Both the position numbers and the translations under genes were made by a program. Below are positions 3,821 to 34,280 of a DNA stretch of 64,000 bases, one piece after another. The notes beneath the pieces are model-generated. The model did no database searches, was not told the origin of the DNA, and was given only the letters and a program-made list of their open reading frames with translations. Source of the DNA: Terriglobales bacterium (GTDB lineage Bacteria > Acidobacteriota > Terriglobia > Terriglobales > Acidobacteriaceae); contig DATHMF010000089.1 of NCBI GenBank assembly GCA_035487355.1, positions 1-64,000 on the forward strand, given 5' to 3'. Numbering within the stretch: the stretch's first letter is position 1; each line of letters begins with the position of its first letter.

Positions 3821-3852
3821 TATTGAGTGATTGCGTCATCGAGTCATTGACT
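3821..3852. repeat. TCATTGA-type dispersed repeat tract
   Basis: The stretch ATTGAGTGATTGCGTCATCG and the following GAGTCATTGA belong to a family of short TGAGTCATTGA-rich tracts. Longer examples occur at 29259-29332, 31145-31243 and 32845-32960. All lie wholly or mainly in spacers between genes. Confidence 0.55.
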
Positions 3853-28420: not shown

Positions 28421-29263
28421 ATGCATTCTAATTACATTCCGCGACGGGTGGTATCGTTGCAGCCCAGCGCCACGGTCACGCTTGAGCGCCTGGGGCTGCT
28501 GGAGCGCGTAGTAGCCTGCACCAAGTGGTGTGGCGATGTTTGTCCACAAATCGCCGATCAGGCCCACACCATTGTTGCCGACTCGTGGACGGCCAAATCG
28601 GCAGATATTCTCGCCGCGCGTCCTGATCTGGTGATTGCTTCGGTTCCTTACCAGGCAGAGGCAGTGGGCGAAATCCTGAAGGCCGGAATCATGTTTCTGG
28701 GGCTGGCGCCACATTCGCTGCATGACATCTACACCGACATCGCTGCCATAGCCCGCATCATGGGAGAGCAGGAGGGCGGGCAGAAGGTTATTGGCGAGAT
28801 GCAGGCGGAAATTCAACGGATCAAAACTACAGCCGAGGACGGCTGTGCCACACTTTTTTCTGAGGGCTCCGCTGCCCAGCGGCCTTTGGTTTTTTGTGAG
28901 GAGTGGGGCAAACCCGTCATTCATTCGCAAACCTGGGTAGCGGAACTGGTGGAAGCCGCTGGAGGCAAGTTCCTGGGCACCGCGGGAAGCAAAACCGATG
29001 CGGAGACCGTTAGCGCGGCGGATCCTGATGTGATGGTCATGGCCTGGTGTGGTGCAGGAGACCGGGTGCCACTGGAAAAGATCATCGAGCAGCGGGGCTG
29101 GGAAGGTTTAGCAGCCGCGCGGGAGCGCCGCATCTACTGCGTGCCCGACGAATTTCTTAACACACCCGCGCCTACGCTGATGGATGGATTGCATGCGCTG
29201 GCAGGAATTATTCATCCGGAGATATTTCCTGCGCACCCGAGAGTGAGGCGGATTGAGCATTGA
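28421..29263 (+). CDS. BtuF-like periplasmic-binding-fold protein without signal peptide
   Basis: 280 residues of the periplasmic binding protein family used for cobalamin or siderophore capture (PF01497 type). Motifs are RRVVSLQPSATVTLERLGLLERVV at the start, the ILAARPDLVIASVP strand and the WEGLAAARERRIYCVPDE stretch. There is no signal peptide or lipobox, so it is probably cytoplasmic, as in the 'cobalamin-binding protein' group. A palindromic element is translated within it (28828-28853, residues TAEDGCATL). No ABC transporter is adjacent. Ligand unknown. Confidence 0.8.
   Translation: MHSNYIPRRVVSLQPSATVTLERLGLLERVVACTKWCGDVCPQIADQAHTIVADSWTAKSADILAARPDLVIASVPYQAEAVGEILKAGIMFLGLAPHSLHDIYTDIAAIARIMGEQEGGQKVIGEMQAEIQRIKTTAEDGCATLFSEGSAAQRPLVFCEEWGKPVIHSQTWVAELVEAAGGKFLGTAGSKTDAETVSAADPDVMVMAWCGAGDRVPLEKIIEQRGWEGLAAARERRIYCVPDEFLNTPAPTLMDGLHALAGIIHPEIFPAHPRVRRIEH
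28828..28853. repeat. 26-nt palindromic element inside a coding region
   Basis: The core ACAGCCGAGGACGGCTGT (7-bp arms, AGGA loop) followed by GCCACAC is identical over 26 nt to 50848-50873, which lies in an unrelated coding region. Here it is translated in the frame TAEDGCAT. Confidence 0.75.
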
Positions 29264-29332
29264 GTCATTGAATCATCGGGTCATTTGGTCATTGAAGAAT
29301 TGAGGAATCGGGTAATTGTGCAATTCAATCAT
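29259..29332. repeat. TGAGTCATTGAATCATCGGG-type repeat tract
   Basis: Runs of (TGAG)TCATTGAATCATCGGGTCATT and TTGTGCAATTCAATCATT. The same building blocks occur at 3821-3852, 31145-31243 and 32845-32960. Confidence 0.6.
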
Positions 29333-31144: not shown

Positions 31145-31243
31145 GATTGAGCGATTGGGTCATTGAATCATTTAGTCATTGGGTTGGGTCAATTACCAAG
31201 CTTACTTAATGACTCAATGGTCCGATGACTCAATGACTCAATT
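31145..31243. repeat. Long imperfect inverted repeat made of TCATTGA units
   Basis: Arms at 31145-31180 and 31208-31243 are complementary at 28 of 36 positions by manual alignment, with a 27-nt loop containing CCAAGCTTAC. The right arm reaches into the last codon and stop of the next gene. It probably acts as a transcript end for the convergent or flanking genes, but has no U-tract. Confidence 0.65.
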
Positions 31244-31879: not shown

Positions 31880-32047
31880 AAAGTGCATTCTAGTGCAGTT
31901 TTTCACGGGGAATACCGTAAAATAAACACTCAGCGTTGACATTTAAGAGTTCGACAGGCAAACTGTCGCCTTCCACCTACTTTGCAAGATGCAATTGGGT
32001 TTAGACAGTTCAAACAAATTGCCGGTTCAACAAGGTTGACAGCAAAC

Positions 32048-32500
32048 GTGAAAATAGCCGGAAACCGGGTCTCGTACACGCTGGACTCCACACTCGAGAG
32101 CGTGAATCGTGCCGAACAGACCGCTGAGAACATGGCGGCCAGGGCGGGTTTCTCCGAGGACGACTGCCATCGTATTTCGATGGCGGTGCGGGAGGCGGCA
32201 GTCAATGCCGTACTGCACGGCAACGCTTACGATCCGCGCAAGAAGGTGCGGGTTGCGTTTGAGAATACCGGAGAGGCGCTGGTGATCACCATCGCCGATG
32301 AAGGCCCGGGGTTGTGCGAGAAGGATGTGCCCAACCCACTGGCGCCGGAAAATTTGCTGAAGCAATCGGGGCGTGGTATTTTCCTCATTCGATCTTTTAT
32401 GGATGACGTAAAGTTCCGCACCCTTGAGCCCGGCACCGAAATTACTTTAATCAAGCATGTTCCCGGAAACTCGGCGGGACACACGGAGGAAGCAAAGTGA
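32048..32500 (+). CDS. Anti-sigma regulatory factor / RsbW-like serine kinase
   Basis: About 150 residues from a GTG at 32048; the frame is open from a TTG at 31982. A GHKL-type ATPase with N-box [15 protein letters not shown]1 DEGPGL and G2 [13 protein letters not shown] motifs. It belongs to the RsbW/SpoIIAB class that phosphorylates a STAS-domain antagonist and binds a sigma factor. The next gene, overlapping or abutting, is exactly such a STAS protein, so the two form a partner-switching pair. No sigma factor or phosphatase gene is adjacent. Confidence 0.9.
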
Positions 32501-32502
32501 CC

Positions 32503-32844
32503 ATGAAGGCCAGTACGCGGCAAGTAGACGGCGTGACCGTCGTAGACCTGAGCGGACGAATTACGCTCGGCGAAGGCAGCGTTGTGCTGCGGGATACGGT
32601 GCGCGATTTGATCTCCCACGGGGACAAGAGAATCCTGCTGAACCTGGGAGACGTTACCTACATTGACAGCTCAGGCATCGGCGAACTGGTGAGCGCCTTC
32701 ACCACTGTCCGCAACCAGGGCGGCGAGCTGAAGTTGCTCAAGCTCACCAAGAAAGTCCATGATCTGCTGCAAATCACCAAACTGTACACCGTCTTCGACG
32801 TCAGGGACGACGAAGCCCAGGCCATCGCGTCATTTAAGAAATAA
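32503..32844 (+). CDS. STAS-domain anti-sigma factor antagonist (RsbV/SpoIIAA-like)
   Basis: 113 residues from ATG at 32503; a GTG at 32497 overlapping the upstream stop is an alternative start. GGAGGAAG serves as ribosome-binding site. The single STAS domain includes [13 protein letters not shown] and the phosphorylatable Ser region [14 protein letters not shown]. It would bind the RsbW-like kinase when unphosphorylated and release the sigma factor. Encoded right after its presumed kinase. Confidence 0.93.
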
Positions 32845-32960
32845 TTGAGTCATTGAACCATTGAGTCATCGGGTGATTGGGTCATTGTGTAATTTGGTAA
32901 TTGTGCAATTCAAAAATTACTTCAATTACGCAATTACCCGATTACACAATTATTCAATCC
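32845..32960. repeat. TCATTGA tract with a strong inverted repeat
   Basis: After tandem TGAGTCATTGAACCATTGAG units, arms ATTGTGTAATTTGGTAATTG (32884-32903) and CAATTACCCGATTACACAAT (32931-32950) match at 18 of 20 positions. It lies between the STAS gene and the AhpD-like gene, within 18 nt of the latter's start. Confidence 0.7.
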
Positions 32961-32967
32961 GATTTTC

Positions 32968-33492
32968 ATGCGCATTACCCGCCTAGACCGCACTCAAGTT
33001 GACGCCGAATCACAGGCCGTCTATGACGACTTCATGAAAGAACGCGGCAACGTGCCGAACATGTTCCGCAGCGCCGCCCACCGGCCGGAGATCATGCGCA
33101 CCATGGTGGCGCACTTCCGCGCGGTCATGAATACCGGCACGGTCACCAAGAAATTGAAAGAACTGGTGATCGTACGTACTACCCAACTCAACCGCTGCGA
33201 GTATTGACTGGCCTCTCATACCGTCTTGGCAAGACGGCTGGGCTGGACGGACGATCAGATTACGAATCTCACAGATTTTGAGAAGCGCTCCGACTTCACG
33301 GAAGCAGAGAAAGCGGCTTTGCGCCTGACGGAACGCATGACCCTGGACGCACACAAAGTAGACGAAGAGTTGTGGAAGCAGTTGCGTCAACATTTTGACG
33401 AGGGTGAAGTCGTGGAATTGTGCGCGGCCATTGGGCTGTTCAATTATTTCAACCGGTTCAATGACGCGCTGCAGATGGAACCAACGAAGTAG
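32968..33492 (+). CDS. AhpD-like (carboxymuconolactone decarboxylase family) protein, probable selenoprotein with in-frame TGA at codon 80
   Basis: If TGA at 33205-33207 is read through, the frame encodes 174 residues, full length for the peroxidase-related AhpD/CMD family. The N-terminal part is MRITRLDRTQVDAESQAVYD.. and ELVIVRTTQLNRCEY; the C-terminal part is LASHTVLARRLGW through AIGLFNYFNRFNDAL. The family motif is CxxC..H. The sequence here reads C-E-Y-stop-L-A-S-H, so the TGA replaces the second, peroxidatic cysteine, and nothing else is broken: no frameshift and no other stop. A hairpin 20 nt downstream fits a bacterial SECIS. The likely product is a CxxU thiol/selenol peroxidase or oxidoreductase. 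The alternative is a pseudogene or a base error (TGC or TGT to TGA). Confidence 0.75.
33205..33240 (+). promoter_or_regulatory. Candidate Sec UGA codon and SECIS hairpin
   Basis: UGA at 33205-33207 is followed by CCGTCTT (33221-33227), loop GGC (33228-33230) and AAGACGG (33231-33237), a perfect 7-bp stem. The apical loop begins 20 nt after the UGA and its first base is G. Bacterial SECIS elements lie in the coding region just downstream of the UGA, with an apical loop that usually carries an early G at about this distance. A possible lower stem, GGCC (33210-33213) with GGCT (33241-33244), may extend it. Confidence 0.65.
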
Positions 33493-33568
33493 GAAGCCCG
33501 AAGGAATAAACCGTAGTAGCAAATAAGTTCACCGACACATCCATATTGCCGAAAGGATGCATCAGCCG

Positions 33569-34120
33569 CTATTTGCTCTCTACACTCACGAGGAAACTAT
33601 ACGTATTGGTGGCTCCGGCCTTCGAAGGCCAATCGCCCTCCGCGCCTAAGAGAAACACTGTTGCCTGGTCAAAGCGGTAATCGATCTTTGCGCTGGACAT
33701 CCGCGGCACACCCCAGGCGTGGGCCAGGGATTTTGGAAACCCGTCTACGGGTAGCGGGGTACCCTGCGGATATAAATCGAAAGATGCGTCCGAGTTTCCA
33801 CTCCCTACTGTGATTGAGATATGTAGCGTGCCTCCATTCACAAACCGGCTTGCATCCAGCCTGATAAGCCGGTACTTGTGTTTCCCATCCCCCGGGGCGA
33901 TGAGAGTTCCCTGGCCGGAAAAACTTTCACCGGGAACCAGGCGGACGGTCGTGTCGGGATTCACACTGACGTCATCGCTGGTAAAGACTTTGGTGGGGGA
34001 AGATCCGTTCTTGCCTTGTTGCTTGCGGACCTTGCGTGCGGCGTCGCCCAGCGACTGTCCGCAGCAGACACTGCCGATCAGCAAGAGGATGGACAAAATT
34101 CCTGAAGTGAGTCGCTGCAT
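33569..34120 (-). CDS. Secreted hypothetical protein
   Basis: 183 residues. The N-terminus is a signal peptide, possibly lipoprotein type (LLLIGSVCCGQ). After DAARKVRKQQGKNGSS, a motif often seen at the N-terminus of acidobacterial secreted proteins, a beta-rich domain runs to the end. GGGAGG precedes the ATG. No named family. Function unknown. Confidence 0.75.
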   Translation of the reverse strand: MQRLTSGILSILLLIGSVCCGQSLGDAARKVRKQQGKNGSSPTKVFTSDDVSVNPDTTVRLVPGESFSGQGTLIAPGDGKHKYRLIRLDASRFVNGGTLHISITVGSGNSDASFDLYPQGTPLPVDGFPKSLAHAWGVPRMSSAKIDYRFDQATVFLLGAEGDWPSKAGATNTYSFLVSVESK

Positions 34121-34280
34121 GAAAACCTCCCACGATTACTCCGCTCATTCGTTAGGCCCACGATGTGCGATCCGCAGCCCCAAATTTTCCATAAACCTGA
34201 GGCGGGGGCTGAAAAGGCCAGCTTTCGATGAGAGGCTAACAAAAATCTTCTGGAATCGCCATCTTTTAACCCCATACTTC

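Follow-up and report, generated by a model that had tools for sequence, protein, structure and literature searches.

The window analysed here, a stretch of 64,000 nt, carries a gene for a predicted AhpD-like protein that opens with ATG at 32968 and, if an in-frame TGA is read through, ends with TAG at 33490-33492 (Table 1). Without read-through the AhpD-like product stops after residue 79, and 94 codons of open frame continue past the TGA. Genes of the HATPase and STAS types, with products that we take to be anti-sigma-like and anti-anti-sigma-like, respectively, lie just upstream. When 125 other loci (L146 included) were searched for these neighbours, matches were found with the selenocysteine (Sec) forms of the AhpD-like gene and with one of the two groups of Cys forms described below. 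A STAS match occurred in 33 of 41 Sec loci versus 4 of 69 Cys loci in a set of 110 that includes the present one, many of these loci being short, so that absence is weak evidence. A role of the predicted enzyme under stress regulation is possible. The neighbouring genes end in TGA stops, and TGA is therefore not generally reassigned.

An AT-rich intergenic repeat occupies positions 32844-32959 of the window and is also seen at 3822-3849, 29259-29294 and 31154-31242. Its unit, ATTGRGTCATTG, has 12 matches in the window with up to one mismatch (0.58 expected), and 32875-32959 is an inverted repeat with 39-nt arms and a DNA folding z of -5.55.

Table 1. Features of the AhpD-like locus and of the second AhpD-like gene of the same genome.
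Feature	Position	Strand	Remarks
HATPase-type gene	31982..32500	+	ordinary TGA stop; matches in 43/125 other loci
STAS-type gene	32497..32844	+	matches in 44/125 other loci
AhpD-like/CMD gene, predicted selenoprotein	32968..33492	+	174 codons, in-frame TGA as U80
UGA codon, predicted Sec	33205..33207	+	aligned with Cys of CxxC in homologues
Spacing from UGA to apical loop	33208..33227	+	20 nt; published range 16-37 nt (PMC13188914)
Candidate SECIS hairpin	33221..33237	+	7-bp stem, CCGTCTT (33221-33227) with AAGACGG (33231-33237); loop GGC (33228-33230)
Second AhpD-like gene (L177)	G000:C73:49646-50140 (L143:4641-5168)		in-frame TGA, CHYU motif

The read-through translation scored above the cut-offs of TIGR01926 (peroxidase-related enzyme; 88.5 bits, cut-off 81.8), TIGR00778 (AhpD core; 46.3 bits, cut-off 27.8) and the Pfam family PF02627 (CMD; 60 bits, cut-off 23). 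It is 44-74% identical to the products of the other 29 loci among the best 30 fetched from 73 matching genomes, nearly all of them full length. The UGA takes the place of the second Cys in CxxC (CEYU), and the active-site motif reads E65 - C77-E-Y-U80 - H84, a spacing that presumably corresponds to that of the catalytic residues in AhpD (Glu, CxxC, His). In a 28-row alignment E65, residue 80 and H84 are invariant and C77 is nearly so, and solved relatives, such as PA0269 (2o4d, E 6.7e-19), have the same spacing in the Cys form. The product is probably a 174-residue enzyme of the CMD/AhpD fold with a C-x-x-U active site, acting as a peroxidase or a thiol-disulfide redox enzyme, and U80 would probably be its reactive, catalytic residue.

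A preliminary description of this DNA had placed a hairpin, CCGTCTT-GGC-AAGACGG, in the coding stretch for TVLARR (codons ACC GTC TTG GCA AGA CGG), at the distance from the UGA expected of a bacterial SECIS element. Sequence and position proved correct, and the 20-nt spacing falls within the published range. Figure 2 of a 2026 review (PMC13188914) gives as limits for bacterial SECIS elements a stem of 4-16 bp, a loop of 3-9 nt with G in one of its first two positions, 16-37 nt between UGA and loop, and a minimum free energy (MFE) limit of -7.5. On single-sequence folding the 7-bp stem is part of the MFE structure (-13.2 kcal/mol). This energy is unremarkable by itself (z -1.32); 23 of 200 shuffles fold equally well, and the energy alone is therefore no evidence for the hairpin. 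Geometry is the rarer feature. Counting both strands, the window has 2095 TGA triplets (1007 + 1088). One is followed, at the offset seen here, by seven Watson-Crick pairs that enclose a 3-nt loop with G first; nine, the present site among them, have seven or more Watson-Crick pairs with spacing and loop inside the published ranges. Of 75 in-frame TGA candidates in the window (stems of at least 6 pairs, G-U allowed), the 25 listed, none of them the present site, had no active-site-like motif by eye. An Rfam scan of 32400-34200 (E up to 10) matched no SECIS family; its seven matches were to miRNA models, lay in the AT-rich repeat (32852-32961) and were taken as chance.

Homologues were collected from three sources: 100 related genomes, 73 of which had a match at E 1e-10, the best 30 being fetched; a public collection of named genomes, from which 80 of 246 loci were kept, all Acidobacteriota by title; and relatives of genome G032, 48 of 199 of which matched at E 1e-40, with 15 further loci read. 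Because the sources overlap in some genomes, the counts are of distinct sequences. Among the total of 125 loci, 49 have TGA (41 distinct over 48 nt) and 76 have a Cys codon, TGC or TGT (66 distinct). In the first two sources the codon for residue 80 is TGA, TGC or TGT in 110 of 110 loci, and the presence of TGC or TGT in 69 of these agrees with a CxxU family that has Cys homologues at U. Of the distinct sequences, 40 of the 41 with TGA have the full 7-bp stem with its GGC loop and none of the 66 with Cys does; the best of the latter pairs at five of the seven positions. The stem is thus kept with TGA and not with Cys, as had been predicted. Eight versions of it occur, e.g. CCGCCTT/AAGGCGG, CCGTCTT/AAGACGG, GCGTCCT/AGGACGC, GCGCTCT/AGAGCGC and CTGCTTT/AAAGCAG. 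The loose published SECIS model was dropped as a sole test, since 25 of the 66 Cys sequences fit it with at least 5 pairs, and the model alone therefore proves little. Many Cys forms also lack the first Cys, having TPYC for CEYC (L032, L070, L073 and many of L074-L127). In these homologues the CxxC pair was thus reduced to a single Cys after the replacement of Sec.

The covariation analysis used the 35 distinct TGA sequences, out of 41, that came from the first two sources. RNAalifold recovered exactly the 7-bp stem and nothing else, with changes on both sides in five of the seven pairs. In these rows 98.0% of the 245 stem cells pair and the covariation score is 0.261, values that none of 500 shuffles reached; the rows are related, so that the shuffles overstate significance, a fault from which two other controls are free. 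Sliding the partner strand by 1-3 columns lowered pairing to 31-61%. For the Cys set, RNAalifold run on 65 of its 66 distinct sequences gave no consensus structure, and 29.0% of cells pair there as against a shuffled mean of 28.8%. Equal conservation of the stem in Cys homologues, named beforehand as the observation that would speak against a SECIS element, was thus not seen. The suggestion that a lower stem, GGCC/GGCT, extends the hairpin did not hold up beyond this one sequence, in which it does fold: 73% of its cells pair versus 98% in the upper stem, mostly at columns that hardly vary or that change on one side only, and the RNAalifold structure contains no more than the upper stem. It was rejected as a conserved part of the element.

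The hairpin had also been said to constrain several codons, and the codon choice beneath it bears this out. Ala is encoded by GCA in 35 of 35 TGA sequences (background in the rest of these genes, 9.4% of Ala codons), the next residue by AGA or AGG in all 31 sequences that have Arg there (background 4.5%), and Leu by TTG in 33 of 35 (background 17.5%). In the Cys set the same codons are mostly GCG or GCC, CGC and CTG, or encode other residues. When TVLARR of the present gene was recoded with background codons for the same amino acids, all seven pairs arose in 58 of 200000 trials; with the single occurrence of the geometry among the TGA triplets of the window, this agrees with the earlier judgement that a chance stem of such quality is unlikely. 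Selection evidently keeps the stem more than the peptide.

The assembly to which the window belongs (GCA_035487355.1, 96.55% complete) encodes one clear tRNA-Sec on contig C103 (76.1 bits; anticodon TCA by ARAGORN), with G before CCA, and SelA on contig C101 (556.6 bits), so that both of these components for Sec decoding are present. SelB was not found in it, either in a first search or with SelB of the same genus as query; the latter gave only 34% identity to an EF-Tu-like ORF, and the top candidates of the former, L009, L010 and L011, were read from their sequences as EF-Tu, CysN and LepA, not SelB. Nor does selB lie beside the AhpD-like paralog on C73, as it does in several relatives. In G001, of the same genus, selB stands between lpxC (TIGR00325, 269.6 bits) and a TPR-like gene, and protein searches, run without a positive control, found neither neighbour in the present assembly. 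A DNA search with the whole 6.9-kb contig of G001 also returned nothing, which shows little by itself. The lpxC gene is a core gene of Gram-negative bacteria. With selB, lpxC and the TPR-like gene all missing, an assembly gap is likely, and the stretch that bears selB is likely to be absent from the assembly.

SelA, SelB and tRNA-Sec were all found, at the thresholds used, in 20 of the 24 TGA genomes of the first-source set. Of the other four, the present genome gave no SelB match, G002 and G067 gave none for tRNA-Sec at the setting used, and G071 is 73% complete. Of six Cys genomes, three (G018, G039, G044) have none of the three components and three (G020, G040, G046) have all. In the latter, selA, selB and the tRNA-Sec gene lie close together (loci L148, L149 and L147 of G020, G040 and G046, respectively) and, by reading, SelD-like ORFs (G046, G040) or a formate-dehydrogenase-like ORF (G020) are found nearby, while the three genes lie apart in most other genomes listed. 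A later gain of the Sec cluster in G020, G046 and G040 is possible. In several relatives (G004, G005, G012, G015, G049 and G053), about 1 kb or less separates selB from an AhpD-like gene, which has TGA in most cases.

Because the stem is kept with TGA and lost with Cys, the hairpin is, with high confidence, a bacterial SECIS element within the coding region of an AhpD-like selenoprotein gene, the UGA of which would be decoded as Sec via SelB. When a ribosome arrives at this UGA, SelB with GTP and Sec-tRNA(Sec) would bind the hairpin by its first loop base, G, selenocysteine would be delivered, and release factor 2 would be kept from ending translation. That the stem is instead a by-product of protein or codon constraint on a T-V/A-L-A-R-R helix, and the TGA a true stop, a frameshift or the mark of a pseudogene, would fit the conservation of the LARR residues in TGA homologues and the non-significant single-sequence folding. 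However, this account leaves the nearly exceptionless rare codons GCA and AGR, the compensatory changes in the stem and the rarity of the stem under synonymous recoding unexplained, as well as the TGA that 49 of 125 loci have in place of the active-site Cys and the 94 codons over which the present frame runs on, and is extremely improbable.

Two further accounts concern the machinery. Cysteine might instead be inserted at the UGA by an opal-anticodon tRNA-Cys of the selC* kind, with the hairpin serving to recruit a factor like SelB; tRNAs of this kind are described from certain bacteria (PMC7609411). The tRNA of the present genome fits tRNA-Sec at 76.1 bits and has G before CCA, not the U73 described for selC* tRNA-Cys, SelA is present, and the groups named for selC* in that paper are Firmicutes, Thermodesulfobacteria, Nitrospirae and Proteobacteria, all of which makes a reading as cysteine hardly credible. 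Alternatively, the gene may be a selenoprotein gene by descent in a lineage that has lost SelB, the UGA now being a stop and the stem a relic. The failure to find SelB in a 96.55%-complete assembly is what such a loss would produce, but the genes that flank selB in G001 are missing too, so that a missing contig is more likely, and the genome retains its tRNA-Sec and SelA as well as intact stems in two AhpD-like genes; we regard a loss of SelB as improbable. Decoding of the UGA as Sec is retained as the preferred reading.

The second AhpD-like protein of this genome (L177) is 36% identical to the first, and its gene has the hairpin TCGCTTC-GTC-GAAGCGA (7 bp, spacing 20). Counted with the first, the genome thus has two or more AhpD-like genes of this type, alike in hairpin geometry but not in stem sequence. 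L177 is one of 31 more distant TGA loci from the search of the 100 related genomes, which were chosen for having TGA, so that their number says nothing on frequency. The TGA aligns with residue 80 in all 31, and each sequence group has a stem of its own that fits the published SECIS model: CTGCTTC-GGC-GAAGCAG, CCGCTTC-GGC-GAAGCGG and CTCGTCTG-GGC-CAGACGAG at spacing 20, CTTCCTG-6 nt-CAGGGAG at spacing 24, and TTCTGCC-3 nt-GGCAGAA at spacing 18.

In a tree of 101 distinct proteins, the bootstrap of which is not fully settled, the Cys form arose twice within a Sec background, with well supported branches forcing two changes. A quick search in which residue 80 and the next 11 codons were masked gave both Sec-to-Cys changes again, and neither Cys group has the stem. 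Families f2, f4 and f5, the remoter ones of the tree, all have Sec, which suggests that Sec is ancestral in this AhpD-like set, the root as drawn being a midpoint only. The one TGA sequence of the 41 without the usual stem is L027 of G032, a one-contig genome in which SelA, SelB and tRNA-Sec are all present. It has CTGCC-AGTT-GGCAG instead (5 bp, spacing 16, -7.9 kcal/mol), which just falls within the published model, and L155 of G100, in the same genus, keeps CCGTTCT-GGC-AGAACGG. Judged from this one sequence, the SECIS element of L027 may have moved, or the gene may be in the course of giving up Sec.

More broadly, it is conceivable, at somewhat below an even chance, that the AhpD-like fold forms a small multigene selenoprotein set in Acidobacteriota, with at least five groups that each have their own nearly invariant SECIS element of fixed geometry. 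The RNA element, not enzyme function, would then dictate several residues behind the active site, which would be released together with the rare codons at each change from Sec to Cys, and in one genus the element would have moved four bases upstream (L027 versus L155) with the UGA staying in place.

Annotation under the standard code ends the protein at codon 79, and half of the enzyme, including the active site, is lost. The TGA genes and their Cys relatives amount to a clean natural experiment on the constraint that a SECIS element places upon the protein in which it lies, and the shifted variant and the seven other stem versions are ready sequences for testing what SelB needs. In the open-access literature searched, no paper was found on this acidobacterial group or its SECIS covariation.

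The SECIS element of E. coli fdhF is a coding-region hairpin just downstream of the UGA with a G at the start of the loop. The present element shares with it the coding-region position and the loop G, and differs in sequence and loop. Against the bacterial SECIS model as set out in the review cited above (PMC13188914), the element fits with 7 bp, a 3-nt loop that starts with GG, a spacing of 20 nt and an MFE of -13.2; its loop is of the minimum length, and its lower stem is not conserved. Among the NCBIfam models the best E-value was that of NF053654, YciW-related (seleno)protein, with 95 bits over a nearly full-length alignment, but the present protein lies far below the cut-off of this model, 310 bits. 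For Acidobacteria, a 2006 survey gives 4 selenoproteins in 3 families (PMC1794560), and a 2025 method paper 3 selenoproteins in one Acidobacteriota genome (PMC12013277). AhpD-like selenoproteins with CxxU are described in work on the Sargasso Sea (PMC1088965), as AhpD-like 1 and 2 in that on the Global Ocean Sampling data (PMC2398784), and as 'AhpD-like protein, TIGR01926, CxxU' in the list of the 2026 review (PMC13188914). The present gene is a well-supported candidate for a new member or branch of this known AhpD-like selenoprotein family, using a known Sec system. In common with the family as described in these sources (PMC1088965, PMC13188914), it passes the TIGR01926 cut-off, has the CxxU motif and has a UGA followed by a hairpin with a G in the loop; compared by description, the present group differs in being acidobacterial and in its nearly invariant CUUGGCAAG apex.
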